Source: Deltaproteobacteria bacterium
GTDB lineage: Bacteria; Myxococcota_A; Polyangia; JAAYKL01
Assembly: GCA_016935665.1 (NCBI GenBank)
Contig: JAFGQN010000139.1
Location: 1-57,391 of the forward strand
Direction: 5' to 3'
DNA: 57,391 bases
A program made the translations under genes and the position numbers. Positions 3,126 to 43,032 of this stretch are shown here, piece after piece. The notes beneath the pieces were generated by a model. That model saw only the letters and a program-made list of their open reading frames with translations, made no database searches and had not been told where the DNA came from. Within the stretch, counting starts at the first letter, position 1. Each line of letters opens with the position of its first letter.

Positions 3126-3929
3126 CTATTTTTCTTTTTCACCCAGCTGGTTGGCGGTACTGGTCGCTTTTTGAATGGTTCGGGCCAGTGTGGAACGGAT
3201 TCGACCATCTTCCATGACCAGAAGCCCAGCCGTGGTAATGCCCCCTGGGGTGGTGACCTGATCTTTCAATGCCGCCGGGTGCTCTCCGGTTTCCAAAAGC
3301 ATTCTGGCGGAGCCCTGAAGCATCTGGGCGGTTATTTTGGCAGCGATGGCCCTTGGCAATCCCATCATGACAGCACCATCCGCCAGTGCCTCCAGGATAA
3401 CAAACGCAAACGCCGGGCCAGACGATGCCAGCGCGGTGAAAACATCCAGATATTTTTCATCGAGCACGGTGCACATCCCCAGATTGGAGAACAGCTTTTT
3501 AACCGTTAATACTACCTGCTCGCTCACCCCCAGGGACGACAAAGCGATGGCGCCTTCCCCAATGAGGCACGGTGTGTTGGGCATCACCCGCAATACCTGA
3601 GATTCGGGAACCCAGCTCATGAGATTCTGCAGATAGATACCGGCACAGATGCTCACGACAATTTTACCGGTCAACTCCTCGCGACAGGACGTGAGAACAT
3701 TCTTGGCCGCCTGAGGATTGGTGGCCAGCACAATTATTTCGCTTTGTGCCGCCGCCAGTTTATTGTCCTGAGTCACCAGCATATCGGGAAACCGCTGCTT
3801 CAACTCCTCTTCGTGTTCATCGTATTTTGTTGTAAGGATAGTTTGTGTGGCATCAATGGCTTTCGCCGCCAAAAGGCCCTTTAAAATCGCCTCTCCCATC
3901 TGACCACATCCGATAATTGCTAGTTTCAT
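3126..3929 (-). CDS. proC: pyrroline-5-carboxylate reductase
   Basis: The 267-residue length is typical of ProC, the last step of proline synthesis (NAD(P)H-dependent reduction of 1-pyrroline-5-carboxylate). The N-terminus has the Rossmann dinucleotide motif AIIGCGQMGEAI. The C-terminal half carries the family signature around SGPAFAFVILEALADG, and then TTPGGITTAGL. A strong AAGGAG site lies about 8 bases before the ATG at 3929. The gene is transcribed alone and converges with the response regulator. Nothing in the protein looks damaged. Confidence 0.95.
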   Translation of the reverse strand: MKLAIIGCGQMGEAILKGLLAAKAIDATQTILTTKYDEHEEELKQRFPDMLVTQDNKLAAAQSEIIVLATNPQAAKNVLTSCREELTGKIVVSICAGIYLQNLMSWVPESQVLRVMPNTPCLIGEGAIALSSLGVSEQVVLTVKKLFSNLGMCTVLDEKYLDVFTALASSGPAFAFVILEALADGAVMMGLPRAIAAKITAQMLQGSARMLLETGEHPAALKDQVTTPGGITTAGLLVMEDGRIRSTLARTIQKATSTANQLGEKEK

Positions 3930-4102
3930 ATGTTAAAGCTCCTTACTGTGTCGCAAAATCAGCATCTTATATAATGTTCGAAGTTTTAAAGAAAGCACAA
4001 AAAAAAGAACCGTTTGGGGGACGTGTTCAGGCACTGAACAATGAGGAATTCCGTCGGTTTATGAGTTGAAAACAACTGCAGAATTATGGTTTGTTTGCAT
4101 TT

Positions 4103-4375
4103 ATGATCGTACTCCGATTCTCGCTCTTATTGTTTGTTCTTTCTGTATTCGCCTGCATTTCCAGTTGCGGCCGAATCGGATTCGGTGTAGCGCAACACGA
4201 TGGTCAACAGTCAGGGGCACGCCTCGTCTCTGGCGTCGGGGCCCAGTGCCAGTATTCAGAACATCATCGTTGCCTATACCGTGCGGGAATAGATTTGGGA
4301 TGGGACACCAACGGCGCATCCAGCGACAATTTCAATGGCGCCGCACCCGCTATTGGCCACTTCGAATCGCCGTGA
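4103..4375 (+). pseudogene. short lipoprotein-like ORF, possibly a decayed lipoprotein gene
   Basis: From an ATG at 4103 a hydrophobic stretch (VLRFSLLLFVLSVFACISSC) ends in a lipobox-like cysteine followed by GRIGFG, the pattern of an exported lipoprotein. The frame then runs about 70 more residues, rich in Gly, Ser and Asp, and stops at 4375. Neighbouring frames also carry plausible protein-like pieces (for example SASIQNIIVAYTVRE in another frame). That suggests frameshift decay of a longer gene, but I cannot prove it. It could also be a genuine small lipoprotein of about 90 residues. It lies directly upstream of the FHA gene and no good ribosome-binding site is visible. Confidence 0.3.
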
Positions 4376-4425
4376 TATGGAGATGTGCGCAATCGCTGAA
4401 TCCGCACACCAAACGCACGCAGGAA

Positions 4426-4457
4426 TTGACAGTTCCGCTTTTCAACGTCAGTATAAT
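4426..4457 (+). promoter_or_regulatory. candidate sigma70-type promoter for the FHA gene
   Basis: A perfect TTGACA hexamer at 4426-4431 is followed by a perfect TATAAT at 4452-4457, just ahead of the ATG at 4480. The 20-base spacer is longer than the usual 16-18, which lowers confidence. If used, the leader would be only about 15 bases and the long in-frame extension upstream of 4480 would not be translated. Confidence 0.35.
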
Positions 4458-4479
4458 ACTACTCAATGGTGGCATTAAC

Positions 4480-5043
4480 ATGACGGATAATCTGCTAAAC
4501 GCGATCCTGAAAGATCTGAAAACCAAAACCGTGGCTCAGTTTCAACTGAACTATACGGGATGGTACCTCTTTGGAGGCCCACTTCTGGAAGAAGAAGGGG
4601 ACATTTCCTACCAGACCGATGTCATTTCGCCTTTGGCATTCCAAAAACTGATTGCGGATACCAACCCCGGTCGCATACATTCCAAAGACATCGCCAACGG
4701 CCAAAATGTATCGGACAGCCAGTTTGTTTACGAAATAAGAAAAAAACCCACCAACGCATTCTCCGACTGGATTACCATCGGTCGGGCAATGAACAATGAT
4801 ATTGTTCTTCGTTATCCGACCATTTCGAAATTGCATGCGCGATTCGAAATCGAAGAAACGGCGTTTGGCGATCTGCTTGGATTTCAGCTTATCGACAACA
4901 ACTCCACCGGTAGAACGGTTCACAACGGTGTTTTTTTAAAAGAAAATCAGAAGGCACCGGTTTGCATTGGTGATGTGATTCTGTTTGGTAATATTCAGTG
5001 CATGGTTCTGGATGCCACGCGATTATGGGACCTGCTGGGATAA
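4480..5043 (+). CDS. FHA-domain protein
   Basis: With the ATG at 4480 the product has 187 residues. The C-terminal half is a forkhead-associated domain: WITIGRAMNNDIVL (the GR of the phosphothreonine loop), then SKLHARF and NNSTGRTVHNG, then a closing strand near the end. FHA domains bind phosphothreonine peptides and are frequent partners of Ser/Thr kinases. Its place just upstream of the barrel/FecR/kinase run suggests it reads the phosphorylation state set by that kinase. The frame is open back to 4066, but that stretch is rich in Arg and Trp and unlike a protein, and a promoter-like pair at 4426-4457 also favours the short form. The N-terminal 90 residues match nothing I know. There is no signal peptide. 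Confidence 0.8.
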   Translation: MTDNLLNAILKDLKTKTVAQFQLNYTGWYLFGGPLLEEEGDISYQTDVISPLAFQKLIADTNPGRIHSKDIANGQNVSDSQFVYEIRKKPTNAFSDWITIGRAMNNDIVLRYPTISKLHARFEIEETAFGDLLGFQLIDNNSTGRTVHNGVFLKENQKAPVCIGDVILFGNIQCMVLDATRLWDLLG

Positions 5044-5058
5044 AAACGAGAGTGCTCG

Positions 5059-5070
5059 GCGAACGTTCGC
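5059..5070. promoter_or_regulatory. perfect 12-base palindrome ahead of the barrel/FecR/kinase run
   Basis: GCGAACGTTCGC at 5059-5070 is a perfect palindrome in the 113-base gap between the FHA gene and the TTG start at 5157. A dimeric regulator could bind it. It lacks a loop and a T-tract, so it is not a terminator. Confidence 0.25.
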
Positions 5071-5156
5071 TTGCCATGAACACGGTCGTCCAATATATTG
5101 GAAAGATGATATCGATTAAGATTTAGATAAATGCGGCTAAAAAGGACTCGATTTCA

Positions 5157-6680
5157 TTGCAACACGGTTTTTCCAGAATCACCATCGCCCTTTTCATCTT
5201 ATTGATGCTGGTGGTCTGTACAGACAACGGTATCGCGAGCGACCAGGTGCAGACCTCCCAAAACATCGCGTCCGATGCGATGCCAGGATTTTTCAATATT
5301 GGTGTTCCATATGGCGCTGCGCCCAGGCTTTCCATTGCGGGGACCGCGCGGTACGGCCTGATTGAAAGCATTGGTCCCCAATCCGGCATACACCATGAGC
5401 TGGGCGGCACTATCGCCATTGGGGGGACATTGTGGCCGTGGATTTCAGCGGCGCTGATTCTGGACGGAGAATATCAGAAACATCCGGCCGACGATGAAGG
5501 CTCTGACTACAGTATTGTGGGTGTGCCAGAGCTTAAATTCCGCGGCGGAAGCCCCGTTGGAAAGCATCTTTTACTGGGGGGCGAAATTGACGCGCGCTTT
5601 ACCGGCGAAGAAGCCCCTTCTTTGCAATTGAATGCCACGGTTCTCAGCGGAAAACTACTCGCCACCATTATATCACTGGCTCCTTTCCAAATTGGACTGA
5701 TGACCGGATTCTGTCTCGACTACAGCGAAAATGGCGCACCGGCCCGGGACTCACTTCGCCCAGGAGATCGGATTGCCCTCGATGCCTCAAACTACCATGC
5801 TGTCCTGTTTGGACTCGCATTGGCGTGGCAAGTGAAGCAAATCCGTTTTATTCTGGAAGCGGATTCACGTAAGTATATTACCAGTGAGGTACCATTTTCA
5901 ACGTCGCCCACCCGTATCACACTGGGGGCGCAATACAGCATAACAAAGGCATTGCAACTGGACCTGTCTACAGAAACCATCGTTTCCAAACGCCCCGGCG
6001 TCGAAACAGATGACCCGCTGGTCCCCATTTTGCCCAGGTTCACCGCACTGCTGGGTATTCGATACACCTGGCACTCCGCCGAATCGCCCAAATCGGGCGA
6101 AAACACCAATATCGATGCGGTCGTTCCTCCCATCGATTCCGGAGACAATTCGAATCAGGTGAAAAAACCTGTGGCCACAGGAACCGTTCAGGGCCAGATA
6201 CTCGATGAGGAAAGCCTGCCGATCACTGACGCCACTGTCACCGTGGTCGCCGCCGATGGTTCCAATCATACAACTGTTACCGACAAAAATGGCAATTACG
6301 CACTGAGGAGCATTCCGGTTGGTCCGGCAGAGGGGACGGTGGAAGCCGAATACTTTGAACCCACGACCTTTAAAGTTGATGTGGCCGAAAACATCACCTC
6401 CATCGCAGCGCCCGAGACACTTGTCCAGAGCAAAGTGGGATCCCAGATTAGAGGTCTGATCCGAGACGTTTCCGGCGCGCCACTGAACGCAACAATTCTC
6501 ATTTTGCCAGGTAGAATCAAAACGCAAACAGACAGCGAGGGCTTCTTTGAAGTGGACGTAAATCCCGGGCAGTACACCGTTGAAATCTTCGCCCGTGGGT
6601 TTGTCCGGCAAAAACAACAGGTTAATGTTGGAGAAAACAGTGTCGTCGTTTTAAATGTCGACCTGCGCGCCAAAAATTAA
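5157..6680 (+). CDS. outer-membrane barrel-like protein with two carboxypeptidase-regulatory-like domains
   Basis: The 507-residue product is read from a TTG start 10 bases after an AGGA site; no ATG sits in frame nearby. A signal peptide covers about residues 1-27. Residues about 40-300 show alternating amphipathic strands rich in Gly, Tyr and Thr, as in an outer-membrane beta barrel. Residues about 340-415 and 427-507 look like two beta-sandwich repeats of the CarboxypepD_reg type (GxVxDxxGxPLxxAxV...TDxxGxFxxxVxPGxYxV). These usually sit in the periplasm or at the cell surface. The stop is 11 bases before the FecR-like lipoprotein, whose stop is 3 bases before a Ser/Thr kinase, so the three are probably co-transcribed. 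A role in envelope sensing is inference from that context. The exact ligand or cargo cannot be told. Confidence 0.75.
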   Translation: MQHGFSRITIALFILLMLVVCTDNGIASDQVQTSQNIASDAMPGFFNIGVPYGAAPRLSIAGTARYGLIESIGPQSGIHHELGGTIAIGGTLWPWISAALILDGEYQKHPADDEGSDYSIVGVPELKFRGGSPVGKHLLLGGEIDARFTGEEAPSLQLNATVLSGKLLATIISLAPFQIGLMTGFCLDYSENGAPARDSLRPGDRIALDASNYHAVLFGLALAWQVKQIRFILEADSRKYITSEVPFSTSPTRITLGAQYSITKALQLDLSTETIVSKRPGVETDDPLVPILPRFTALLGIRYTWHSAESPKSGENTNIDAVVPPIDSGDNSNQVKKPVATGTVQGQILDEESLPITDATVTVVAADGSNHTTVTDKNGNYALRSIPVGPAEGTVEAEYFEPTTFKVDVAENITSIAAPETLVQSKVGSQIRGLIRDVSGAPLNATILILPGRIKTQTDSEGFFEVDVNPGQYTVEIFARGFVRQKQQVNVGENSVVVLNVDLRAKN

Positions 6681-6691
6681 CGGGGACGTTT

Positions 6692-8233
6692 GTGTATTTA
6701 ACGAAATGGCATCGTCATCTACTATTTTTCCTTTTTGCACTGTTTTTGAGCAGTTGCGACACCTTTGGGTGCAACTCGGATGTGATAGCGGAACTGTCCA
6801 TTCGAAACGGCAATGTGGAGCGGGATTTTGCGTTGAGCATGAATGACTGGAAAAATGCCCCCATTTCGTCCACGTTCAAAATAAACGATGGCGTTCGTAC
6901 ATTGGCGCAGTCCACGGCGGAACTCACACTGGCAGAGGGTTCCATTGTGGTGATGCAACCCAACACCCAGCTCCGTTTCGCCAGTTCTGTTCCCAATGAA
7001 AACAAATTTGGAATGGTGGTGGAATCCGGTTCCGCCAAGGTGGAAGCCAAATCCGATGATTTGCACATTGAAACCGGCATCGGCATGGCCCGCCTGAAAA
7101 AAGGCAGCGCAATGACATTGCGATTGGATAACAATGAACTGACGGTGCATGTGGACATTGGAAGCGCCAGGTTCATGGGCAGCGACGGCAGCGAACAGGA
7201 CGTATCAGAGGGCGACGAAATCGTCTTATCCATTGGCAGTGCAGAGCTGGTCAGCAAAAACGACGATTCCGATTCGGTCATCCCAAAAAATGAGAACATT
7301 CAAGTGTCCGACCTGCTGGACGAAGAAACAGATGACGACGACGCCGATGGAGAAGAAGAGGATGATATTGGGAACGATGATAGAGGGGAACAGGGCGTGC
7401 CCTCCGACCAGAACACTGCTCAAATCGCTGATTTCGCCATCGCTGCCGGTGAACGCATATATATTCATGCCATGCACGCACCGGTGGCTGTGGAGTTCAG
7501 GTTTGGCGACCTTTGTGCAGATGCCGGATACGTTAAAGTGGCCAAAAAGAAAATTCGCGGCTCCGGCACAGGGTCGGTCATACTGAATTTGCCGCTTAAA
7601 GCACACTCCTACGAAGTCCGTTGTGTCGAAAACGGTGATTTGTCCCGTGTAAAAAAACGGGGTCGCATCACGGTGCTCATGGACAAGGGCAAATTGAATT
7701 TGTCCAACAAGGCGCCCACCACCAACGTGGATGCCGATGGCCGCGACTACAATGTGATGTATCAGAGCAAACTTCCGCGCGTTGTAATGAAATGGCCAGA
7801 CGCGCCAAAGGCCTCCGCGTACAAATTGTACTTGACAGGAAGCAGTGGGACAAAAACCATATCGCTCAAATCGCCGCAGTATCGGTTTTCGTCAGGCGCT
7901 CTGAAAGAGGGCGCCTACAAGTTTAAATTCACGGTCAGCAGTACCGGAAAACGCTCGAGGACATCGTCATTAAAAATCCGATTTGATAACGCCACCCCTA
8001 AAGCAGTGCTAAAATCACCCGGGGACAAGTCGTATGCCAGCGGTGCGTCTGTGGAAGTGAGCGGAATTGCCCTTCCCGGCTGGAACGCATCGGTGTATGG
8101 CAAAGATATTCCCATGGACGAACAGCACCGATTCTCCGGCAGTGCCAAACACAGTGGAAACTACTTGTCGCTACCAGTGAAACTGACACACGCATTACGG
8201 GGAACGCACTATTTTTTAAGGCGGGCCAAATAG
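6692..8233 (+). CDS. FecR-like lipoprotein with acidic linker
   Basis: This 513-residue protein starts at a GTG 7 bases after a GGGGA site. A short hydrophobic signal ends in the lipobox LSSC (Cys22), so it should be a lipoprotein. Residues about 65-175 resemble a FecR-type beta domain (repeated strands around LTLAEGSIVVMQPNTQLRF, then later glycine turns). Residues about 205-235 are an extremely acidic Asp/Glu linker. The remainder looks like a pair of beta-sandwich modules, one Fn3-like near residues 365-430 (WPDAPKASAYKLYL). FecR domains relay surface signals to cytoplasmic regulators in iron systems; here the neighbour is a kinase rather than a sigma factor. The domain call is by eye and moderate. 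Confidence 0.7.
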   Translation: MYLTKWHRHLLFFLFALFLSSCDTFGCNSDVIAELSIRNGNVERDFALSMNDWKNAPISSTFKINDGVRTLAQSTAELTLAEGSIVVMQPNTQLRFASSVPNENKFGMVVESGSAKVEAKSDDLHIETGIGMARLKKGSAMTLRLDNNELTVHVDIGSARFMGSDGSEQDVSEGDEIVLSIGSAELVSKNDDSDSVIPKNENIQVSDLLDEETDDDDADGEEEDDIGNDDRGEQGVPSDQNTAQIADFAIAAGERIYIHAMHAPVAVEFRFGDLCADAGYVKVAKKKIRGSGTGSVILNLPLKAHSYEVRCVENGDLSRVKKRGRITVLMDKGKLNLSNKAPTTNVDADGRDYNVMYQSKLPRVVMKWPDAPKASAYKLYLTGSSGTKTISLKSPQYRFSSGALKEGAYKFKFTVSSTGKRSRTSSLKIRFDNATPKAVLKSPGDKSYASGASVEVSGIALPGWNASVYGKDIPMDEQHRFSGSAKHSGNYLSLPVKLTHALRGTHYFLRRAK

Positions 8234-8236
8234 CTT

Positions 8237-10156
8237 ATGACAACAAACAGATTCCCAGCTGAATTGACAGAAAATCCGTTCAAAGACGATATGACCGGGC
8301 GCGTTCTTCTGGGGAGATATCGGATTGTACGTAAACTCGCCGCCGGCGGGATGGGTGTGGTGTATCTGGCACGCACCGAGGGCGCGAGGGGATTTGTCAA
8401 GCCAGTGGTGGTTAAACTCATTCTGCCCAATTTTTCTTCTGATGAATCCTTCTTGAAAATGTTCGTGCGCGAAGCGCAAATCCTCTCCAAACTCAATGAT
8501 CCCGGTATCGTGAGCGTGATTGATTTTGAGCAGGAGAAAAATTTTTACATCATGGTGCTGGAATACGTTCATGGATTCCAGCTGAGGGAATGGCTCAAAT
8601 TCCGCGAATTCCGAAGAAAGCCGCTTCCCACCGACGTGGTCATTGAAATCATTTTAAAAGTGCTGGAACCGCTGCACCATGCACACACCGTGGCCAACGA
8701 GGAAGGACATCTGCTGGGTGTCGTGCATCAGGACATCTCGCCTTCCAACATTCTCATCAATACGGATGGACGTGTCAAACTGGTGGATTTCGGCATCGCC
8801 CGAGTGATGGATTCATCCGAAGAGGGCGTCACTACCGTGGGCAAGGGCGGATTTCAGGGCAAACTGTCCTATTCGGCGCCGGAGCGTTTTTCGGGCAATC
8901 CGGCAACAGTGAAGTGTGATCTGTATTCCGTTGGTGTGGTACTGCATCAGCTGCTGGTGGGCAAAAATGAATTCTTCGCAAAAAATCACGCCAACACCAT
9001 CGCCCAGGTCCTTCACCACAGACCCAGCTCGGTGGTTTCAAGGCGCAAGGATGCACCGCCGGAGCTGGACACCATAGTTCAAAAAGTCCTGGCCAAGGAC
9101 CCGGACTACAGGTACGAAACAGCACTGGAATTCGCCGATGCGCTACGCCCTCTCCTGCGTGTCGACAGCCGGGAAGCGGATGAAAAAATCACAAAGCTGG
9201 TAAAAGAGGATTTCACCGATGATATGGCTCAGTTTCTTGGCGTTGAACCGTTGGGAATGCGCGAAAAGGCCTGGCGAAAGCCATCGTTTGCACCACCACC
9301 TCCCGAGGATGAAGCTGAAAATACAAGGCGCATCACCGGAAAGGAAATGGAAGAATTACTCGACGATTCACCGTTTGGCGGCTCCGAAGACTACCGAGAG
9401 GGCCAAACCCACGAATCAACCATTTCCCTCAAACCCCCTGGGTATTCACCGGGCGTCAGCATTCCACAATGGACGGGCGACGATAAAGAGGACCCCTCCA
9501 GGCGAATTACGGTGGAAACTCTGGCGGTGGACCATATCCCCGCACCACGCATGGTGTCCATCAAAGGATTGATTGCTGTCATTGTCACCCTGATTCTGGC
9601 TGCCGGCGCTGTCATTTTCTTTTTGATGCGAAAGCCTCAAGGTGAAAAAATAGTACTGGTCCAAAGCCAGGTGCCGGACAACGCAGTGGGCACATCGAAT
9701 GGTTTGCCAGCCCCAATCGCAAACCCAACCGATCCCAGTGCAGGTATTCCAAAGCCAGATAGTGCGGAATCGTCTGCGGTCCCCTCCGGCACCGATGTCG
9801 AGGAGGACTCGGCGCTGCCAGCGCCACCCGATCCCGACCGGAAAAAGCGTCCGCGCTCAGATAACCTGACCGCAGAACAGCGCCAGTTGCGTGAACTGAC
9901 CAGTGCATTCAAAAGACAAAAGGGCAAAGTAAAAAGCTGTTTCAACCGTCATGCCGAAGCCGTTGAAAATATTAGTCAGATTTCATTTATTTTTTCTGTC
10001 AACGCCGATGGAAGCGTTAAAAGCGTTGGACTCCAACCCGGCTCCATTAACGGAACACCGCTGGGAAACTGTGTCCGACAGGTAGCCCAGTCCACCCGCT
10101 TTCCCAAACAATCCGGGGCCATATCCTTTACCATCCCTGTACGCGTTAAATTGTAG
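8237..10156 (+). CDS. transmembrane Ser/Thr kinase with AgmX/TonB-C-like C-terminal domain
   Basis: This is a 639-residue PknB-type kinase. The glycine loop LAAGGMGVVY, Lys60 in VVVKLI, the DFG motif (VDFGIAR) and the APE motif are intact. The catalytic loop reads VHQDISPSN, so the usual Arg of HRD is Gln (a non-RD kinase). A hydrophobic helix at about residues 440-463 anchors it, and a Pro/Ser/Ala-rich stretch follows outside. The last 85 residues (two Cys, then FPK...ISFTIPVRV) look like the AgmX/PglI or TonB C-terminal domain known from myxobacterial proteins. The start lies 3 bases after the FecR-like gene. I infer that the outer tail senses the barrel/FecR partners and the inner kinase phosphorylates targets such as the nearby FHA protein's ligand. 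Confidence 0.88.
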   Translation: MTTNRFPAELTENPFKDDMTGRVLLGRYRIVRKLAAGGMGVVYLARTEGARGFVKPVVVKLILPNFSSDESFLKMFVREAQILSKLNDPGIVSVIDFEQEKNFYIMVLEYVHGFQLREWLKFREFRRKPLPTDVVIEIILKVLEPLHHAHTVANEEGHLLGVVHQDISPSNILINTDGRVKLVDFGIARVMDSSEEGVTTVGKGGFQGKLSYSAPERFSGNPATVKCDLYSVGVVLHQLLVGKNEFFAKNHANTIAQVLHHRPSSVVSRRKDAPPELDTIVQKVLAKDPDYRYETALEFADALRPLLRVDSREADEKITKLVKEDFTDDMAQFLGVEPLGMREKAWRKPSFAPPPPEDEAENTRRITGKEMEELLDDSPFGGSEDYREGQTHESTISLKPPGYSPGVSIPQWTGDDKEDPSRRITVETLAVDHIPAPRMVSIKGLIAVIVTLILAAGAVIFFLMRKPQGEKIVLVQSQVPDNAVGTSNGLPAPIANPTDPSAGIPKPDSAESSAVPSGTDVEEDSALPAPPDPDRKKRPRSDNLTAEQRQLRELTSAFKRQKGKVKSCFNRHAEAVENISQISFIFSVNADGSVKSVGLQPGSINGTPLGNCVRQVAQSTRFPKQSGAISFTIPVRVKL

Positions 10157-10225
10157 GCAGTTCTCAACGAAAATCGTCACCAAATCGAACCAGTGGACGC
10201 AAGAGGGTTCATCTGCGCCCGCCGT

Positions 10226-12475
10226 TCAAATCACTTCGATTTCACCGTCTTTCGCATCAATTACGGCCTTACCGCCTTTTTGCAGGTCGCCAAAAAGTAT
10301 TCGCGCCGCCAGAGGGCGTCGAATCTGTTTTTCAATCAGCCGCTTCATCGGACGCGCTCCAAACAGGTCGTCGAAACCTTTTTCAGCCAGCAGGGTAAGC
10401 GCTGCTTCAGTGGCCACCAGTTCCACTTTCTGCTCTGTAATCTGAGTTTGCAGCTGGGAAATAAATTTGGCTGCAATCTGTTTGGCGGTCTCTTTTTGCA
10501 AGCGGGCGAATTTTACAATTTCGGTGAGTCGATTGCGAAACTCCGGACTGAACAGCCGCTCGATTTCCTTGTCAGCGCTGAAGTTACCGGTATCTCCAAA
10601 TCCAATTGCCGCTTTGGAACCATCACGACTTCCCGCATTTGACGTCATAATGAGAATAACATTCTGGAAATGAGATTTGCGACCATTGTTGTCCGTGAGC
10701 TGTCCGTAATCCATTACCTGCAGCAGAATATCAAATATATCCTTGTGCGCTTTTTCGATTTCGTCCAGCAGCAGCACGGCATGTGGCGTTTTTCGAATGG
10801 CATCGGTAAGCAATCCCCCCTGCTCATACCCCACATAGCCGGGAGGGGAGCCGATGAGTCTGGAAACCGTATGTTTTTCCATGTACTCACTCATATCGAA
10901 CCGAATAAACTGTATGGATAGCTTTTCCGCCAGCTGTTTGGCCAATTCCGTTTTCCCCACCCCTGTCGGCCCCACAAACAGAAAAGACCCAACCGGCGCC
11001 CCGGGCTCCCCAACGCCCGCACGCGAAAGTTTTATGGCTTCAACAACTGCATTTATCGCATCGTCCTGCCCAAAAACCTGCCTGCGAATTTCTTCTTCCA
11101 GACGAATCAGCACAGCCCGGTCATCCTCCCCAGCCTCCAAATCGGGAATTCGAGCGACTTTCGACACCACATCTCGGATTTCCGGGACATCCAGCACGTC
11201 TTTTTTCATATCGGCCTTTGCCATGCGGTTTTTGGCGCCCGTTTCATCCACCAAATCGATGGCTTTGTCGGGCATATACCTGTTTTGAATATATTTTTCC
11301 GCCAGCTCACAAGCGGCTTTCAATGCATCTTCGGTGTAGGTAACCGCGTGAAACTGCTCGTATTCCGACTTCAGACCACGTAAAATTTCGAACGTCTGCG
11401 TTTGGTTGGTGGGTTCAATGTCGATATTCTGGAATCGTCTCAGAAGTGCCTTGTCAGTTTCGATGGTCCGTTTAAAATCATCATAGGTGGTCGTCCCAAT
11501 GCATCGGATTTGCCCCGATGCCAACGCCGGCTTAAGCAGGTTGGAGACATCCACCGCCGATCCCGACACCGCCCCGGCGCCGGAAATCAAATGGATTTCA
11601 TCGATAAACAAAATGGGATTATCCATTTTCTCAAGTTCTGAAATAACCGACTTTAACCGTTCCTCCAGTTGTCCGCGGTACTTCGTACCCGCTAGAAGCG
11701 ATCCTATCTCCATCAGGTAAATCTCGGCATCCCGCAGAATGTCGGGGACGTCACCGGCAGCAATTTTATTGGCCAATCCGTGTACCAGCACCGTTTTGCC
11801 CACACCGGGTTCCCCCAGCAAAACAGGATTGTTGCGGGTCTTTCTGCACAACACCTGCATGGTGCGGTCCAACTCGGCTTCGCGACCAATCAATGTTTGC
11901 GTCTTGCCTTCCCGGGCGAGGCCAGTTAAATGCAGCGTATATTTTTCCAGTGGGTTTTCCTTCTTTTTCGGGCCTGCACCGGAAGTTCGCCCCTCCCTCA
12001 ATGGCTGTATTTCCCACCCGGACGCCTCAGCATCATCGCCACCATCGCCGTGGGAAATCACCTCCAGCAAATCCACATGATTCACCCCCTGCTTTTTCAA
12101 CAGATGAACACCGTATGACCGCTTTTCTTCCCACAATGCCACCAGCAAATCCGGCGTCCCAATATCGGAACGCGCACTGTATTTCACCTGAATCACAGCG
12201 CTTTCCAGTACCCGTTGAAATCCCACCGTCTGAATGGGCGATTCCTTGCGCTCCATGGCATCATCACTGAGAGTGGGCAATTCATTATCGAGATACCAGT
12301 CCAGTTCGATAACTACTTTTTGAATGTCCACGTCCAGGTGATCGAGGATGTCAATGACTTCATGATTGTGTAACAGTGCATACAGCAGGTGCTCTGCGGT
12401 AATGTATTCATGCCGACGACGATACGCTTCATCAATAGCGGCTTCAATGGCGTGCTTAATACTTCCGGTCGACAT
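10226..12475 (-). CDS. clpA: ATP-dependent Clp protease ATP-binding subunit ClpA
   Basis: At 749 residues it matches ClpA in length. The N-terminal domain (residues 1-140) has the two Clp-N helical repeats, followed by two AAA+ modules: Walker A GEPGVGKT at 221-228 with Walker B LFIDEIHLI, and Walker A GPTGVGKT near residue 500 with Walker B LLLDEIEKAH. An IGF tripeptide near residue 623 (SKAAIGFGD) is the loop that docks on ClpP. It unfolds substrates, including N-degron proteins delivered by ClpS, for ClpP. The start lies one base after the clpS stop, so the two are co-transcribed. No clpP is in the window. There is no ClpB-type middle coiled coil. Confidence 0.96.
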   Translation of the reverse strand: MSTGSIKHAIEAAIDEAYRRRHEYITAEHLLYALLHNHEVIDILDHLDVDIQKVVIELDWYLDNELPTLSDDAMERKESPIQTVGFQRVLESAVIQVKYSARSDIGTPDLLVALWEEKRSYGVHLLKKQGVNHVDLLEVISHGDGGDDAEASGWEIQPLREGRTSGAGPKKKENPLEKYTLHLTGLAREGKTQTLIGREAELDRTMQVLCRKTRNNPVLLGEPGVGKTVLVHGLANKIAAGDVPDILRDAEIYLMEIGSLLAGTKYRGQLEERLKSVISELEKMDNPILFIDEIHLISGAGAVSGSAVDVSNLLKPALASGQIRCIGTTTYDDFKRTIETDKALLRRFQNIDIEPTNQTQTFEILRGLKSEYEQFHAVTYTEDALKAACELAEKYIQNRYMPDKAIDLVDETGAKNRMAKADMKKDVLDVPEIRDVVSKVARIPDLEAGEDDRAVLIRLEEEIRRQVFGQDDAINAVVEAIKLSRAGVGEPGAPVGSFLFVGPTGVGKTELAKQLAEKLSIQFIRFDMSEYMEKHTVSRLIGSPPGYVGYEQGGLLTDAIRKTPHAVLLLDEIEKAHKDIFDILLQVMDYGQLTDNNGRKSHFQNVILIMTSNAGSRDGSKAAIGFGDTGNFSADKEIERLFSPEFRNRLTEIVKFARLQKETAKQIAAKFISQLQTQITEQKVELVATEAALTLLAEKGFDDLFGARPMKRLIEKQIRRPLAARILFGDLQKGGKAVIDAKDGEIEVI

Positions 12476-15009: not shown

Positions 15010-16239
15010 TCAATGCATAAACAAATTTTTGCTGACACCAGCCAGCCAATAGAACTGAAGTGAAGTGTCCGGCATTACATTTTCATCATAAATGGTATAC
15101 GTATCAGAAAAGAACGTGGCAAGTATGCCCGCCCCCACAAACAATTCGATATCTCGCCCTGGCATTGGAAGATGCCAGGTGGTTTCTCCTCCAACCGAAA
15201 GATCCAGAAAATATTTATCCAGCTTCTCATGCAGGAAAGTATCGGCCCTTGACCAAATAATATCGAACTGTGCAACCGGTGCGATAGAAAACGTCGCTTG
15301 TCCAATATTGATGGGAAATCTCAGATAGAGACCGACTGGCATGTTGTACGCGTTAATCGTACCATACATCCCAGAATCCCTGCGCCGTGCCAGTCCGCCC
15401 ACTCGAATGGTGGGTGCAAAATGCTTATGCAGATAAAAAGTCAACCCCAGCATGATACCGTGAATCGTACGAGACGCCGGGTATGGAAAGGCGCCAAGAT
15501 AACCAAATTCCATCCATATAGGATGTTCAGAGCGATCATAGTTCGCTGGGGGACGGAACGAATCGCCACTCAGCAGCGCATTTTCATCCAGGGCATCCTT
15601 TTTCTTCCAACGCAGATAATCGGCAGCGGGTCTGGACGGGGCGGCCGTTTTGGGATGATTGGCCTGATTTGCAATTTTGGGGACATCAAACAGATATTCA
15701 CTGTACATCACTTCGCGTATCCCCGCGGCAATATTATCCTCTGTAACCACATCGGATGTGTCAGCAGCTGCGCCATTGAGGGCATTTGGAACATCTTCCT
15801 GCACAACGCCAACGGGAATGGACGTGTGAGCCAGGCTTTGTGCTTCGACGATATGCAGATAACAAACGTTGTTTTCGAGACAATTCCAGCTGAAAACAGC
15901 CAGAAGACCTGGCGTTTCTTTGGCTTTGCGCGCGGTATAGTCACTCCACTGAGTTGCGGTCCTGGGCATCGCAGCTTTATCCACCTGGATTTGCACGCGG
16001 AGTCGTTTCAAATCCGACGTCAACTTTTTTTCGACAGCTGCAACATCTGGTGACATATCACCATTGGTTAGAAGAATGATACTTGCCAAACGTTCCAAGG
16101 GCGAACTCTGCTTTACGCCACCCTCCGGCTGGTCCGTTTTAATATTTTCGCCTGCAATCAGTTCGAAAGAAAAACAGAGAGATATACAGAAGAGCAGAAT
16201 CCCCGAACAAACCACTAGCTGTTTTTTCAGGGACCCCAT
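15010..16239 (-). CDS. exported protein with barrel-like C-terminal half, kinase-coupled
   Basis: The 409-residue product has a signal peptide of about 30 residues (KKQLVVCSGILLFCISLCFS). Residues about 45-190 form a soluble alpha/beta part of unknown family. Residues about 245-409 consist of alternating Gly/aromatic-rich strands typical of an outer-membrane barrel or barrel-like domain, although the C-terminus ends in NLFMH rather than a clean aromatic residue. The start is 4 bases downstream of the stop of the PEGA-domain kinase on the same strand, so translation is probably coupled. This repeats the barrel-plus-kinase pairing seen at 5.1-10.2 kb. I do not recognise the protein beyond that. 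Confidence 0.7.
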   Translation of the reverse strand: MGSLKKQLVVCSGILLFCISLCFSFELIAGENIKTDQPEGGVKQSSPLERLASIILLTNGDMSPDVAAVEKKLTSDLKRLRVQIQVDKAAMPRTATQWSDYTARKAKETPGLLAVFSWNCLENNVCYLHIVEAQSLAHTSIPVGVVQEDVPNALNGAAADTSDVVTEDNIAAGIREVMYSEYLFDVPKIANQANHPKTAAPSRPAADYLRWKKKDALDENALLSGDSFRPPANYDRSEHPIWMEFGYLGAFPYPASRTIHGIMLGLTFYLHKHFAPTIRVGGLARRRDSGMYGTINAYNMPVGLYLRFPINIGQATFSIAPVAQFDIIWSRADTFLHEKLDKYFLDLSVGGETTWHLPMPGRDIELFVGAGILATFFSDTYTIYDENVMPDTSLQFYWLAGVSKNLFMH

Positions 16240-16242
16240 TGG

Positions 16243-19038
16243 TTATATTAGCTTTTTCACCAGTGTGGTGGTTTTTCCAGATTTAATGGTCACATTAAAA
16301 CTTTTGTCGATACCAAAACCTTCGTTTTGAACAGTGACTTTATACTTGCCCGGCTTCAATGCCTTTTTCACCAGAGGTGTATTCTTTACAAAAGTGCCGT
16401 TGATAAACACTTTCGACCAGGGCTGCGTCTGTACCGACAAATATCCATCCGCCCCGTCACCTCCGCCACTGTCATTGTCGTTGGACGCTGCCGCCGGATG
16501 GGAAGCCCCACCACCAGAAGATGCCGGCTTATGAACGGGTTGAGCCGAAGACGTGGGTGTGCGCTTCACCACAGCCGAAGCAGCTTCGCAGGGAACGGCA
16601 GGCAGGGAAATCTTTGACTCTCCGGTTTCAATATCGCTTTTTGAAAGAGGTCGAACAACGCTGCGTGCGCCACAACTGTACTCCACTTCGTATTCCCGGC
16701 CAGTCTCGATTTCATGGGTAGCCGGTGTCACTCCCAGATTTATCTTTTTGCCGGCATCCAGCAAGGCCACTCTGTTTCCCTGCGGTTTCGTATTGAACGT
16801 TACTTCAACCTGGGCAAGAACCAGTTTCTTCAGAGGAAGTCTGGCCGTTTTGCCCTTTTCAATATCCACCTCAAATTTGAGCTCTGAATATTTGTCCTTG
16901 CTGATTTTAACCTCATGAGTTCCCGGTTCAAGATCCGAAATCGTCATTGGAGTGGTGTCTCCTGAAATAACCTTTCCGTCGATTTCCACGGTACATCCAG
17001 GCGGATCGGATTCCACGTACAAACCGCTGCCACCCGCTTTTTCAAGTGTTACTTCTGTGGTGAACCTTTTTTTGGGGCGCACGTCGAAAATCAGTTCCTT
17101 CTCAGCGTATCCTTCGCGATTAATAATAAACGAATGCTGCCCGATGGATAAATCCTCAATCAGCATAGGGGACACATTCTGAGGAATTTTACGGGAACCA
17201 TCCACGACCACGGAAAGTTCATCTCCGGGGGTGATGTTCAATTCTATTTGCCCAGTATTAGAGAGGCCAAACTTAAAAATACCTACCACCGCCGCTACAG
17301 CGACAATCACGCCAACCGCGACGCCAATAATGAGAGATTTTGTCTTGTTTTTCCGTTTTCGGGACGGCGAATAAGAAACGGGTTCATTGATCCGAGTGGG
17401 CGCTGCCAGGCTTGGTCGTGGTCCTGTCTGCGCCAGGGAAGGCGGAGGTCCAGCGGACAATGTTCGGGTTGCCACTGCAGCCATTTGAACCGCAGTATCC
17501 TTGGTGTAAATGTTTGTCGGTTCCTCATCGTCATCCCAGTCCATATCCATGTTGTCATTGGATTGAGAACTGGCCATCCCCAAATCCAATCCACCCTGAG
17601 GAGGACTGGAAAACGATGGCAACGAAGGCCCTGGGGGGAGTGGCAACGACGAAGCACCCCCGGATGGTTTCGGTGGCGGTGGCGTAATTCCAGGCCCTGT
17701 GCCCAAAGGCGTAGATAGAATAGGACTACTGGATTCCGAAGTACTCGATGCACTGGAGGGTGATCCAGTGGGTCTTGGCGGAGGCGGCGCAGCTACAGCC
17801 GGCATTCCCAGCATTGTTTTTTTCACGTCATGAGATGCGACCCCGGCCTGAGGCGCGGTTCGGACTCCGATTGCGCCACCCGAAGGCGACGGAGATGGTG
17901 GTGCAGGCATTCCTGAACCAGCGGGGCGGGGCGGAGCGGGTGGCACCGTCACTCCTCCTGGAGAAGGTCTTGGAACGGTTGGTGACGACACTTTCCCCGG
18001 CGGTACAGGAACGGCTTTTCCACTGCCCGTTTTTGAAGCGCGTGGTGGTGGTGGTACAGAAGAGCGAAGCACACTGTCATCGAATTCCTCGGCGGCAGCC
18101 GCATTTTTCTCTATATCTTCCCGGAATACCTCCTGCATAAAAGACAAGAGATCTTTTCGGGAGAAGAAACTTCCGGACGTATACATATAGCTTTGCAAAT
18201 CGTCATGTAAATCCATTGCACTCTGATAGCGTTCCTCGACTTCTTTACTCAGTGCTTTGAGAACTATTTTTTCCAGTTCCACAGGAATTCGCTTGTTAAA
18301 CGAGGATGGTGCAACGATGTCCACATTTCGAACTTTTTCAAGCGTGGAGAAATCAGATTCGCCAATAAAAAGTCTCTCTCCGGTAAGCAATTCCCATAAG
18401 CAGATTCCTACCGCGAAAATATCGGATCGACGGTCCAGTGACAGACCGCGAACCTGCTCGGGAGACATATAACCGAACTTTCCTTTCAGAATACCGGCCT
18501 GCGTTTTTCCTGCCTTGCCAGCCGCTTTGGCGATACCAAAATCGATGAGCTTTACTTGCCCGTCAAAGGAAATAAGTACGTTTTGAGGAGATACATCACG
18601 GTGAACAAGGTTCAAATCTCTACCGGCGCTGTCCTTTTTATTATGCGCATAATCGAGTCCCTCACACATTTTCATCGTGATATAAACAGCCATGGAAAAT
18701 GGCACTGTCTGCGCTTTCTTGCGCATGCGATCGAAAATGGCACGGAGATCCTTGCCTTCGACATATTCCATGGCGATAAAATATGAATCGCCCACCTTCC
18801 CCAGGTCGTCAATTCGCGCAATATTTGCGTGATTCAACTGTACGGCGATTTTCGCCTCGTCAATGAACATTGTGATAAATTCTTCATCTTCAGCAATGCT
18901 CGGCAGAATCCGCTTCACAGCCAGCAGACGTTCAAATCCCTCCACACCGAAAGCTTTTGCTTTAAAAACTTCCGCCATCCCACCAACGCTGATTCTATCC
19001 AACAAGTAATATTTCCCAAAAGGAACAGGCTTTTTCAC
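16243..19038 (-). CDS. transmembrane Ser/Thr kinase with PEGA domains
   Basis: This is a 931-residue kinase. Residues about 8-275 form the catalytic domain: ISVGGMAEVF loop, Lys42 in LAVKRI, catalytic loop LVHRDVSPQN, DFG and the SPE form of the APE motif. A long Pro/Ser/Gly-rich stretch (about 310-490) and a short acidic patch with DMDWDDDEEP lead to a transmembrane helix at about 566-591. Outside lie two PEGA-type beta domains (about 597-665 and 668-733), a further beta region, a Ser/Pro/Gly/Asp-rich linker and a third PEGA domain at the C-terminus (about 860-931). PEGA domains are thought to bind surface polymers or envelope partners. It heads a two-gene unit with the exported protein below. 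Substrates are unknown. Confidence 0.9.
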   Translation of the reverse strand: MKKPVPFGKYYLLDRISVGGMAEVFKAKAFGVEGFERLLAVKRILPSIAEDEEFITMFIDEAKIAVQLNHANIARIDDLGKVGDSYFIAMEYVEGKDLRAIFDRMRKKAQTVPFSMAVYITMKMCEGLDYAHNKKDSAGRDLNLVHRDVSPQNVLISFDGQVKLIDFGIAKAAGKAGKTQAGILKGKFGYMSPEQVRGLSLDRRSDIFAVGICLWELLTGERLFIGESDFSTLEKVRNVDIVAPSSFNKRIPVELEKIVLKALSKEVEERYQSAMDLHDDLQSYMYTSGSFFSRKDLLSFMQEVFREDIEKNAAAAEEFDDSVLRSSVPPPPRASKTGSGKAVPVPPGKVSSPTVPRPSPGGVTVPPAPPRPAGSGMPAPPSPSPSGGAIGVRTAPQAGVASHDVKKTMLGMPAVAAPPPPRPTGSPSSASSTSESSSPILSTPLGTGPGITPPPPKPSGGASSLPLPPGPSLPSFSSPPQGGLDLGMASSQSNDNMDMDWDDDEEPTNIYTKDTAVQMAAVATRTLSAGPPPSLAQTGPRPSLAAPTRINEPVSYSPSRKRKNKTKSLIIGVAVGVIVAVAAVVGIFKFGLSNTGQIELNITPGDELSVVVDGSRKIPQNVSPMLIEDLSIGQHSFIINREGYAEKELIFDVRPKKRFTTEVTLEKAGGSGLYVESDPPGCTVEIDGKVISGDTTPMTISDLEPGTHEVKISKDKYSELKFEVDIEKGKTARLPLKKLVLAQVEVTFNTKPQGNRVALLDAGKKINLGVTPATHEIETGREYEVEYSCGARSVVRPLSKSDIETGESKISLPAVPCEAASAVVKRTPTSSAQPVHKPASSGGGASHPAAASNDNDSGGGDGADGYLSVQTQPWSKVFINGTFVKNTPLVKKALKPGKYKVTVQNEGFGIDKSFNVTIKSGKTTTLVKKLI

Positions 19039-20467: not shown

Positions 20468-22753
20468 ATGAAATCAAAACATATCACCCAATACGCCGTC
20501 CCCACCCTCCTGTCTGCGCTGACGATTTTCTGTTTCGGCGCCACCGGTGAAATTTGCGGACCACTCTTTGAGACGACCGCAGATGCATTTGAAGCAAAGT
20601 TTCCGGAAAACAAATCTGATGACTTAAAAAGCGTCACAAGTAAACTCGACACTGAAAAGAAATACCAGATACAAAACTCATCAGGACAACCACTGCTCAT
20701 TTTTACCACCAGTACCCCTAAAAGCGCGGTTGTGGCGTACGATTTGAAAAAAAAGAAAACGGCGTGGCAAGTCCAGATTCCCATTAATTCGCCAGTCACA
20801 CTGAGCGGCAATACCTGTATTGTTCAGACGGGCTACGCCATCGCGGCATACAACGCCGGTACCGGCGCCATGATGTGGAGTATTCCCGTTGAAGAGGGGT
20901 GGACCTATTATGGTGCAGATGCAAACAACGATACTGTTGTACTATCCCTGGGAATAGGAAGTTCCAATGACGGTGCATATGCCAACGGAAAACTGATTGC
21001 ACTGAATCTGGCGGATGGAAAAGAGCGTTGGCAAAACATCACCGGCAATGGTTTGCTTGGCAATCCCGCAGTGGAGGATACCTTCGTTTTTGTTCCATGG
21101 AAAAAGAAACAGATAGCCATACTCAATCTGAATACTGGCGAAGAGGTCAGTCGACTCCGCGCGGATGACTTTACTGTCAATTTTGTTGAGGCCACACCGC
21201 ATGGCGTATTTTACGGAACAAACGCCACCGAGCAGCACGTGGCCGCACTTTTCAAACTGGACAAACATTCAATTAATGGCACACGGACGTCCTCCAATAA
21301 ATTTTTACCACTCGCCGGCGCAGCACCCAATCAGCCTGGATTCCATATTGACACGTTTACTAAGCCGGCCATCGAGCTGGCGAACTCCAATCGTATCCAA
21401 TATTACTGGCTTCCCGGGCCGGGAAAAGGTCGTGTCCAAATGGCCGCCAATACCTATTATCTCCACTATTGGAGATATATTTTTGCGTTTGACGCCCATT
21501 CTCACCAGGTGAAATGGACTTTCTTGTCCAGGGAAGATATTCACTCGCTCCAGGCAGTTGAAAATGGCCTTTTTGCAGTTACGGTTTCGGGGAATGTGCA
21601 CTATGCGGACGCCAATAACGGCCATGTGGACTGGATACTGAACACAGGTATAGAACCTACATCAGTTGTATTCGACGTCCAGGGATTCAGGCCCACTTTT
21701 GAACCAAACAGCGACATGCCCGATCCACGCACTGATCTTAAACAAATTATCAGGGATAAAGACAGCCGCATGCTGCCGGCGCGCATTTATGCAACAAAAC
21801 TGTTGGCCCGAAGTAAGGCGCCCGGTATTACCGGCGATCTGCTTGAGTTGCACGCCGATGCATCCATGCCCACCGCGCTGCAAAAAACAATCGTCGAAAA
21901 ACTTGCGGAACGGGAGAGCGGCGCCGAAGCACTCATCTCATCACTGAGTGTCCGATACGATTATCTCGAACAGATTGCAGCGCCTCCCATGAACGTCATT
22001 GCTCCAGCGCTCGCCAACATGCAGGCGAAGGAAGCGTTGCCTGGCCTGATGCAGCAAATACTCGATTACGAAACGCCAACAAAAAATATCGAGCCCATCG
22101 CAACCGCCATAAAGCAACTGGGAGATGCAACAGTTGTTGAGCCATTGATGGCATTTATCATTCGGTACCATGCGGATTCGTCATTTGTTGGCTACGAAGA
22201 TGCGCTCACACGCATCAGTGAAGTCATATTGAAGTTTGGCGCCGACAACCATAAAAAGGAAATTGAAGCCATTCGCGACAATGGGCAAACACTTCCGGAA
22301 TATAAAAAGCAACTTCTCACAATCCTGGATCCCGATGCGGATAAAAAAGCCATGGCATTGGCGATTAAAAAGGCACAGGAGGCTGAAATTGCACGGCAAC
22401 GCGCAGTGGAGTTAAAGGCGGCACAGGAACTTGCCAATAGACCATATTACCTTTCTCGTGATGACATTTCGTCGACCATTTCGCAACATGCCTATTTACT
22501 TAGACCGTGCATAAAAAGCGCGCTGGAAAACCGTCTTGGTTTGCGGCAGGTGCGCATGAAGTTCGCGATTACAGGAGAAACGGGTAAAGCAGCCGGGCTG
22601 CAAATTCTTCCCGCGGACATTCCCGGACTTCAGGAATGCCTTGCTGAGGGACTTTCTCAGATTGAATTTCCAAAATTCAAAAATGTGCGCCAAAGTGCCA
22701 GTCATACCATCCGTATCACAGGGGTTCGACGTCAACGGTCCACCCAACAGTAG
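20468..22753 (+). CDS. exported PQQ-propeller/HEAT protein with AgmX-like C-terminal domain
   Basis: This 761-residue protein has an AAGGAG site 9 bases before its ATG and a weak signal peptide (about residues 1-25). Residues about 70-400 contain PQQ-type beta-propeller blades (VVAYDLKKKKTAWQVQI, IAAYNAGTGAMMWSI, LIALNLADGKERWQNI, IFAFDAHSHQVKWTF). Residues about 415-600 look like HEAT repeats. A Lys/Ala/Glu-rich helix near 635-665 follows. The last 95 residues carry two cysteines and the pattern RMKFAITGETG...IEFPKF...IRITG, resembling the C-terminal domain of the kinase at 8237. It follows another exported HEAT protein closely. A periplasmic scaffold is the best guess; no catalytic site is visible. 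Confidence 0.8.
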   Translation: MKSKHITQYAVPTLLSALTIFCFGATGEICGPLFETTADAFEAKFPENKSDDLKSVTSKLDTEKKYQIQNSSGQPLLIFTTSTPKSAVVAYDLKKKKTAWQVQIPINSPVTLSGNTCIVQTGYAIAAYNAGTGAMMWSIPVEEGWTYYGADANNDTVVLSLGIGSSNDGAYANGKLIALNLADGKERWQNITGNGLLGNPAVEDTFVFVPWKKKQIAILNLNTGEEVSRLRADDFTVNFVEATPHGVFYGTNATEQHVAALFKLDKHSINGTRTSSNKFLPLAGAAPNQPGFHIDTFTKPAIELANSNRIQYYWLPGPGKGRVQMAANTYYLHYWRYIFAFDAHSHQVKWTFLSREDIHSLQAVENGLFAVTVSGNVHYADANNGHVDWILNTGIEPTSVVFDVQGFRPTFEPNSDMPDPRTDLKQIIRDKDSRMLPARIYATKLLARSKAPGITGDLLELHADASMPTALQKTIVEKLAERESGAEALISSLSVRYDYLEQIAAPPMNVIAPALANMQAKEALPGLMQQILDYETPTKNIEPIATAIKQLGDATVVEPLMAFIIRYHADSSFVGYEDALTRISEVILKFGADNHKKEIEAIRDNGQTLPEYKKQLLTILDPDADKKAMALAIKKAQEAEIARQRAVELKAAQELANRPYYLSRDDISSTISQHAYLLRPCIKSALENRLGLRQVRMKFAITGETGKAAGLQILPADIPGLQECLAEGLSQIEFPKFKNVRQSASHTIRITGVRRQRSTQQ

Positions 22754-42900: not shown

Positions 42901-43032
42901 ACAGTTATAGTCCGCCGGGACAAAAAGGATGGGATGCCATACATCAGTTCCGAAACCATTGAAGGCACCCCCGAACTGTTGGGCGTTCTTCCCGGGATCA
43001 TTGAAAGTACAGCTGACAATTCCCATCCCTGA
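39922..43032 (+). CDS. S41 (C-terminal processing) peptidase with long C-terminal extension
   Basis: At 1036 residues this is more than twice the usual S41/CtpA length. A membrane anchor or signal lies at 7-30 (ISIVAVALFLAIIVVFVLD). A PDZ domain at about 190-280 (GGLGIVISIRDGNLTIISPI) precedes the catalytic fold; the Ser of NSGTASASE (about residue 390) and Lys of GERTFGKGSVQ (about 413) form the dyad. A very acidic linker lies near 512-535. The extension holds two CARDB/APHP-like beta modules (about 610-830), an SH3-like unit (about 850-895, ending MWGWIRVSD) and an Ig-like end. It is exported and probably processes envelope proteins. It directly follows the PDZ lipoprotein gene. Confidence 0.88.
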   Translation: MKKRTLSLASISIVAVALFLAIIVVFVLDKPSGLDRKPDPESNPIARSLTVDSEELQSLSTMYRTITLVQQHYLDAKRIEPRKMLLEAMKELELDIAMLIAREDGNKLNVKIGNAEQTFPLDDLNNTWLLLSRFKDIYTFLKKNIPGDEIDFKELQYTAINGMLKALDPHTVLLTPDIYRSMKDRTHGNFGGLGIVISIRDGNLTIISPIDGTPAQRAGLKAGDIITKINEASTINMPINDAVDLMRGKPGTSVTLDIQRKNWSEEKSFRIKRAIIKVRSIDSASMPGKVGYIRIHDFQANTASDLWEHLQDLAQKNGGLNGLILDLRSNPGGLLSAAIDVSDIFLTEGVIVTTAGQKLSERKVEKARNTGTEPKYPIVILVNSGTASASEIVAGALKGHDRAIIIGERTFGKGSVQVLNEFPDNSALKLTTAQYLTPGDISIQSVGIAPNIELIRLRADKQSIHLGKSIRYREGDLNHHFENTNGNTQKGASEVTLKYLYTPEIKPENDDSKDDTDDDEGFEEDSEDITEQSTYNFKFEPDFEINLGREIALQLNGAKQTGFNKEALVDVFSRLQKKEKNRLANALSKLGIDWREGETVSPQITVETQLANPEKLKAGEENELMVSVTNNGSNTVYQLLAQTRSDFVPLNHKELAFGKVDAGQTVTRNLPFKIPQNYLSRTDDVKIQFEDSSKNSYPAIARRFSIVELAAPVFAFSTVFMDDVKGNSDGVLQPGEIIRLTTTIKNAGKGKAHSVFASVSNDSGHNIFLKKGRQELEEMQPGEIKKAEFEFEVKEAFTKKDVRLKLSVMDVKMRVFTTQALKYPVMPPFAVKDTKGVVQTTVPAVLWAAPIEGAQTRKLGTIPRGHAIAILGEVNGFFRVALSERMWGWIRVSDCVTAENTEGQPVAISVNEPPNIDMIFSKQVVRTDSIILKGTAFDEQLVKDLYIFNNQNKVFFAPNDGKKLAFEANIPLEPGVNFITVVAEETSDLETRQTVIVRRDKKDGMPYISSETIEGTPELLGVLPGIIESTADNSHP

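Follow-up and report, generated by a model that had tools for sequence, protein, structure and literature searches.

An outer-membrane-type protein, a FecR lipoprotein, and a Ser/Thr kinase are encoded as a conserved module, probably a little-described outer-membrane-to-cell signal route, in myxobacteria-like bacteria

Locus and question

What does a FecR-like protein do when its gene lies against that of a kinase and not that of a sigma factor? The question is raised by three genes on contig JAFGQN010000139.1 of a Deltaproteobacteria bacterium (GenBank assembly GCA_016935665.1; Myxococcota_A, Polyangia), of which positions 1 to 57,391, the whole stretch analyzed, are termed the window. The genes, which we call BAR, FECR, and KIN, are separated by gaps of 11 bases (BAR/FECR) and 3 bases (FECR/KIN), and the open reading frames (ORFs) are positioned as follows:

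5157-6680, + strand: BAR ORF, 507 amino acids (aa), TTG start; exported; N-terminal part barrel-like, followed by two CarboxypepD_reg domains
6692-8233, + strand: FECR ORF, 513 aa, GTG start; lipoprotein; carries a FecR domain and, C-terminal to it, a new conserved region
8237-10156, + strand: KIN ORF, 639 aa, ATG start; Hanks-type Ser/Thr kinase with one transmembrane (TM) segment and a TonB-C-like tail

An earlier interpretation drawn from the letters alone (the sequence-only reading) had proposed that this tight run is a single unit, in which a FecR-like lipoprotein is partnered not by a sigma factor but by a membrane kinase, and had added a neighboring FHA gene as a fourth member. We find that the BAR-FECR-KIN run is a real, deeply conserved module. 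The three genes are kept together across a wide myxobacteria-like group and therefore probably serve one signal route from the outer membrane to the cell.

Conservation of the gene set

Searches with FECR against 96 relatives returned matches in 20 genomes, and a BAR search of 59 relatives matched the same places. The window genome holds a second BAR-FECR-KIN copy (C241:22206-27186), both congeners have complete sets (three and two copies), and the set recurs in further genera of the same family and, beyond it, in several families of the class. Tallies were counted from a locus table of the 37 loci that have the FECR C-terminal region. At these loci, picked by FECR similarity alone, a kinase lies at most 6 kb from FECR in 27, against a chance expectation of about 10% (derived from 65 kinases in an 8.16-Mb genome), and a kinase is also near FECR at 17 of 18 additional loci. 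The neighboring kinase bears the tail in all but one of the 27 kinase-adjacent loci, and that one is truncated by a contig end. BAR is present at 29 of the 37 loci, on the same strand in 28.

Gene order is more variable than gene content: the arrangement is KIN-BAR-FECR at L079, L081, L086, and L087, and BAR is inverted at L080. Four genomes (G022, G030, G038, and G046) carry FECR by itself, with a divergent BAR beside a tail-bearing kinase at another place; in families f10 and f13 the module is split in this way, into a lone FECR (L090, L092, L094, and L096) and a BAR divergent from a tail kinase (L091, L093, L095, and L097). When the order changes or FECR moves, the genome still holds all three components.

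The association also appears in an independent hidden Markov model (HMM) search, in which the FECR alignment was run against 284 genomes of the phylum. Five previously unused genomes gave strong full-length FECR matches; in them, a tail-bearing kinase directly follows FECR at all six loci where the contig continues (L194-L197, L199, and L200), with BAR upstream at four of the six. BAR also precedes FECR at L198 and L201, where the contigs end after FECR. Hyalangium versicolor, a named myxobacterium, has two module loci, which together with the content of the window genome point to Myxococcota; 22 of the 30 genomes of its family contain FECR. At the 18 Hyalangium-family loci that were read, the last CarboxypepD domain of BAR is encoded upstream in every case and a kinase downstream in 17, both on the FECR strand and at near-constant spacing; BAR there generally pairs a barrel-like N-terminal part of differing sequence with several CarboxypepD-like domains. 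The proposal of the sequence-only reading that barrel, FecR-like, and kinase genes form one unit is thus borne out by their joint conservation in relatives.

Two observations concern other gene arrangements. Another same-strand kinase gene (L072:14523-15932) comes after the second module copy of the window genome, and a full BAR homolog without FECR (L089:6513-8039, on G004:C162) lies near a 1,224-aa kinase ORF, a possible BAR-kinase pair.

Co-evolution of the three proteins

Within the family, the trees built for BAR, FECR, and KIN at 19 loci are almost identical in topology. Distance correlations for the three protein pairs are 0.89, 0.77, and 0.82 (none of 2,000 permutations was as high), values to which shared species history contributes; pairing paralogous copies within genomes controls for this in part, with small margins, and the true pairing comes out first among the 24 possibilities for every protein pair. 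Because the trees agree and the true paralog pairing fits best, the operons are concluded to have duplicated and diverged as units.

Features of the three proteins

The following features were mapped, all on the + strand:

5250..6101: BAR barrel-like N-terminal region, ~285 aa, defined by our own HMM over 18 homologs; fold putative
6183..6392: BAR first CarboxypepD_reg domain (PF13620), residues 343-412
6432..6674: BAR last CarboxypepD_reg-like domain, present in all BAR homologs, including those of the Hyalangium family
6755..6757: FECR lipobox Cys22 (LSSC), from sequence and alignment; +2 residue Asp
6893..7162: FecR domain of FECR (PF04773)
7427..8227: FECR C-terminal region, ~265 residues, immunoglobulin (Ig)-like by weak matches, ending in G-x-H-Y-[YF]-L-R-R, with conserved C275 and C311
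8318..9118: KIN protein kinase domain (Pkinase, E 7e-42), with K60, D166, N171, and D184-FG
9569..9625: KIN single TM segment, from hydropathy, about residues 445-463
9884..10150: KIN AgmX/PglI (TonB-C-like) tail (NF033768, E 4e-11; TIGR01352, E 0.0016), with invariant Cys568 and Cys612

(i) BAR is likely an outer-membrane protein, with a putative barrel. Its N-terminal 285 residues are exported and strand-like by sequence, a strand alternation that is also present in soluble beta domains and hence is not specific to barrels; Pfam and PDB-chain searches with this region gave no match. The CarboxypepD_reg match (E 3e-26) falls in two stretches, the first of which, by alignment, is missing from some BAR homologs of family f4. 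Pfam matches in BAR comprise CarboxypepD_reg-type and similar sandwich domains only, with no plug, barrel, or STN domain of TonB-dependent receptors.

(ii) FECR is, as had been claimed, a FecR-like lipoprotein, combining the LSSC lipobox with a FecR domain that falls just above threshold (E 2e-5; 25.7 bits versus the Pfam cut-off of 24). PF04773 is matched by 14 of 17 aligned homologs. The C-terminal region matches no Pfam family in the window protein and has weak Ig-like matches in some homologs; PDB profile searches returned nothing convincing for this region or for BAR.

(iii) KIN matches the membrane Ser/Thr kinase that had been described, in both its kinase domain and its one TM segment. 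K60, D166, N171, and D184-F185-G186 are invariant in 14 KIN homologs, and phosphorylation activity is predicted. About 87 residues of linker connect the TM segment to the tail. NF033768 is matched by all 14 operon kinase tails tested and tonB_Cterm by 9 of the 14. Against the full GltG or GltJ architecture in NCBIfam, only the tail of KIN matches, far under the equivalog cut-offs, and TonB (E 0.1-0.8) was the sole result of a PDB profile search with the tail. HxD, DFG, and a TM segment between kinase and tail (one TM segment in 30, two predicted in L192) occur in each of the 31 tail kinases examined, as do at least two cysteines per tail and linkers of 62-123 residues that are often proline-rich. 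Four of the 65 kinases of the window genome carry the NF033768 tail, including both operon kinases. We rejected the notion that the tail is unique to the module: the other two carry it with no BAR or FECR nearby. Separately, the window encodes a PQQ/beta-propeller protein (20468-22753, + strand) with an AgmX/PglI-type tail at 22451-22684. The TonB-C-like tail of KIN and the CarboxypepD domains of BAR, both overlooked in the sequence-only reading, are the best clues to mechanism.

Proposed signal route

We propose that BAR, FECR, and KIN act together as a single signaling unit spanning the envelope, a reading to which we assign a probability of roughly 0.6. BAR, in the outer membrane, would present its CarboxypepD_reg (transthyretin-like) domains to the periplasm, where FECR would act as a lipid-anchored adaptor. 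KIN would sit in the inner membrane, its long linker and TonB-C-like tail extending into the periplasm to sense the state of FECR and BAR; this reach across the periplasm is proposed because GltG and GltJ share the tail family and are described as contacting the outer membrane. A ligand at the outer membrane, or a stress there, could then alter the contact between BAR and FECR and, through it, the KIN tail, which would switch the cytosolic kinase on or off and so change the phosphorylation of targets. The scheme would parallel the FecA-FecR route, with a separate kinase taking the place of FecR's membrane anti-sigma half.

Several observations weigh against this route. FECR is distant from BAR and KIN in four genomes, no BAR is detectable at L083, L195, and L196, and no tail kinase is adjacent at L084, L088, and L219; the two further tail-bearing kinases of the window genome have neither partner near them. 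The +2 residue of FECR differs among homologs (D, E, R, K, G, or N), which blurs lipoprotein sorting. AlphaFold models from single sequences, without alignments, reached confidences (pLDDT, predicted local distance difference test) of only 41 for FECR and 32 for BAR, and lend no support to the barrel or to any contact.

A wider generalization is tentative, and we would sooner doubt it than adopt it: throughout the phylum, a class of TonB-like Ser/Thr kinases might span the periplasm with their tails, dock on an outer-membrane barrel and a FecR lipoprotein, and so couple the state of the outer membrane directly to phosphorylation in the cytosol, possibly energized by a motor of the ExbBD/TolQR type.

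Alternative explanations

The alternative that survives best, although we consider it unlikely, is that the module forms a mechanical or structural bridge across the envelope. The tail of KIN would then connect a complex in the outer membrane with the inner membrane, perhaps driven by a TolQR/ExbBD-type motor, and the kinase domain would tune local assembly instead of sending a signal inward. Such a bridge would draw on the membership of the KIN tail in the domain family of GltG and GltJ, which are described as linking to barrels of the outer membrane in the manner of TonB/TolA (PMC5349195), and on the conservation of linker and tail among tail kinases. However, the conserved unit was not seen to include any TolQR/ExbBD-type gene, and the homologs retain a kinase domain with its catalytic motifs.

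Much more doubtful is a four-gene route in which the protein encoded just upstream reads out the phosphorylation:

4480..5043, + strand: FHA protein, internal ATG start at 4480, FHA E 7e-13; a neighbor outside the module

Its ORF ends 113 bases before BAR, its homologs are near BAR in the two congeners, and its sequence has the residues (GR, S, H, and N) that typify phospho-binding by FHA domains. This linkage is confined to the window genome and those congeners, within a block ordered response regulator-ProC-FHA-BAR-FECR-KIN, and may be plain genus synteny, since the block also holds the unrelated ProC and response regulator genes. FHA is missing from the second module copy of the genome. Beyond the genus, the two are unlinked and each occurs without the other: FHA homologs lie on other contigs than the module in G003 and G013, G012 has FHA with no module, and G004 has the module with no FHA homolog. 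We exclude FHA from the module because its linkage holds only within the genus; of the four-gene order that had been put forward, the BAR-FECR-KIN part extends to many families, and the FHA part does not.

A shade less probable still is that FECR controls an extracytoplasmic function (ECF) sigma factor in trans, with the kinase modulating a classical FecR pathway. In the window genome, FecR is hit 34 times and Sigma70_r2 63 times, and 28 of the FecR hits lie 0.5-0.9 kb behind a same-strand ECF sigma gene (~0.26 expected by chance); with so many pairs, a partner for FECR could sit elsewhere. The sigma-linked FecRs have a cytosolic segment and a TM segment ahead of the FecR domain and resemble membrane anti-sigma factors, whereas the module FECR has neither a cytosolic anti-sigma N-terminus nor a TM segment before that domain, beginning instead with a lipoprotein signal. 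Neither FECR copy in this genome has a sigma gene directly upstream, or anywhere within 2 kb upstream; 28 of the 32 other FecR hits do. The earlier assertion of a kinase partner in place of a sigma factor agrees with this lack of a sigma gene and with the adjacent kinase at both copies. The two module FecRs are the only FecRs of the genome at most 3 kb from a kinase, a count that is not significant within this genome alone (2 seen versus 1.6 expected); the adjacency carries weight because it is conserved across genomes.

The set of 28 ECF sigma-FecR pairs in this genome (G000) is unusually large. Several sigma-linked FecRs (L049, L054, and L060) have an N-terminal H-x3-C-x2-C motif, which is typical of zinc-binding anti-sigma factors.

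Least probable of all is that the three are housekeeping envelope genes with no common pathway, for although co-transcription by itself can hold genes together, this linkage persists in distant families despite order changes, paralogous copies co-diverge, and BAR remains beside a tail kinase after FECR has moved.

Other features of the window

Promoter and terminator scans around the locus did no better than chance; between the FHA gene and BAR, a site at 5071-5099 that resembles a promoter is suggestive only. An Rfam search of 3900-10300 found no family. Further Ser/Thr kinases are encoded at 16243-19038 (- strand) and 24359-25933 (- strand), one of them with PEGA and CarboxypepD_reg-like C-terminal domains, and three kinases per 57-kb window is dense even for this genome. 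A protein with no Pfam match (15010-16239, - strand) is kept beside the same block in a congener (L069), and a 1,036-aa protein (39922-43032, + strand) combines an S41 peptidase with PDZ, CARDB, and SH3-like domains.

Comparison with known systems

Genomes of myxobacteria-like bacteria each encode Ser/Thr kinases by the dozen, most of them with no known input, and the module ties one family of these kinases to defined envelope partners, a tie that rests on conserved linkage, retention independent of gene order, and co-evolution. In bacteria open to manipulation, it offers a concrete, testable path that would run from the outer membrane to phosphorylation in the cytosol.

Among described systems, FecA-FecR-FecI likewise clusters the gene for an outer-membrane protein with those for a periplasmic FecR domain and for a cytosolic output. 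The module differs in lacking a sigma gene, in a FECR devoid of the anti-sigma and TM segments, and in an output that is a separate Ser/Thr kinase; BAR, unlike FecA, has no detected TonB-dependent receptor domains. Closer in its output is the BiofilmReg operon, in which a LysM-FecR protein is encoded with a CHASE2 histidine kinase (PMC5192318). There, too, a periplasmic FecR protein stands beside a membrane kinase and not a sigma factor, but the kinase is a histidine kinase with a CHASE2 sensor, FecR is fused to LysM, and there is neither a TonB-C tail nor a barrel/CarboxypepD partner; conversely, BAR, FECR, and KIN have no CHASE2 or LysM match in Pfam. In Campylobacterota, the gene for an outer-membrane protein with a FecR domain lies in a cluster with that for a CHASE2 adenylate cyclase (PMC9239204), again tying a FecR protein to a non-sigma cytosolic output, although the output is a cyclase, the sensor is CHASE2, and no kinase is involved.

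The gliding transducers GltG and GltJ (PglI/AgmX) are described as resembling TonB/TolA and making contact with the outer membrane (PMC5349195, PMC3169522). They share with KIN one TM helix, a long linker in the periplasm, and the TonB-C-like tail domain; outer-membrane partners have been proposed for them, and GltG carries a cytosolic signaling (FHA) domain. Unlike KIN, they have no kinase domain or FecR partner and belong, with AglRQS, to a motility motor. PknB-type PASTA kinases resemble KIN in their Hanks kinase domain, single TM segment, and extracytoplasmic sensor, whereas KIN has a TonB-C-like tail in place of PASTA repeats and is encoded with an outer-membrane-type protein and a lipoprotein. 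Finally, Myxococcus xanthus MXAN_2063 is a FecR lipoprotein encoded beside pmxA (PMC8844925). Compared by description only, it is like FECR in being a FecR-domain lipoprotein whose gene adjoins a cytosolic signaling gene, and unlike it in that the partner is related to cyclic di-GMP.

A literature search, outside of which most subscription journals fall, yielded no description of the BAR-FECR-KIN gene set. FecR proteins partnered by other kinases or by cyclases are already known, and the BAR-FECR-KIN architecture is not among the published ones searched. Set beside these systems, the module is probably a little-described outer-membrane-to-cell signal route, one in which, within a single genome, the FecR sensor domain would have shifted from anti-sigma factors to a kinase circuit.

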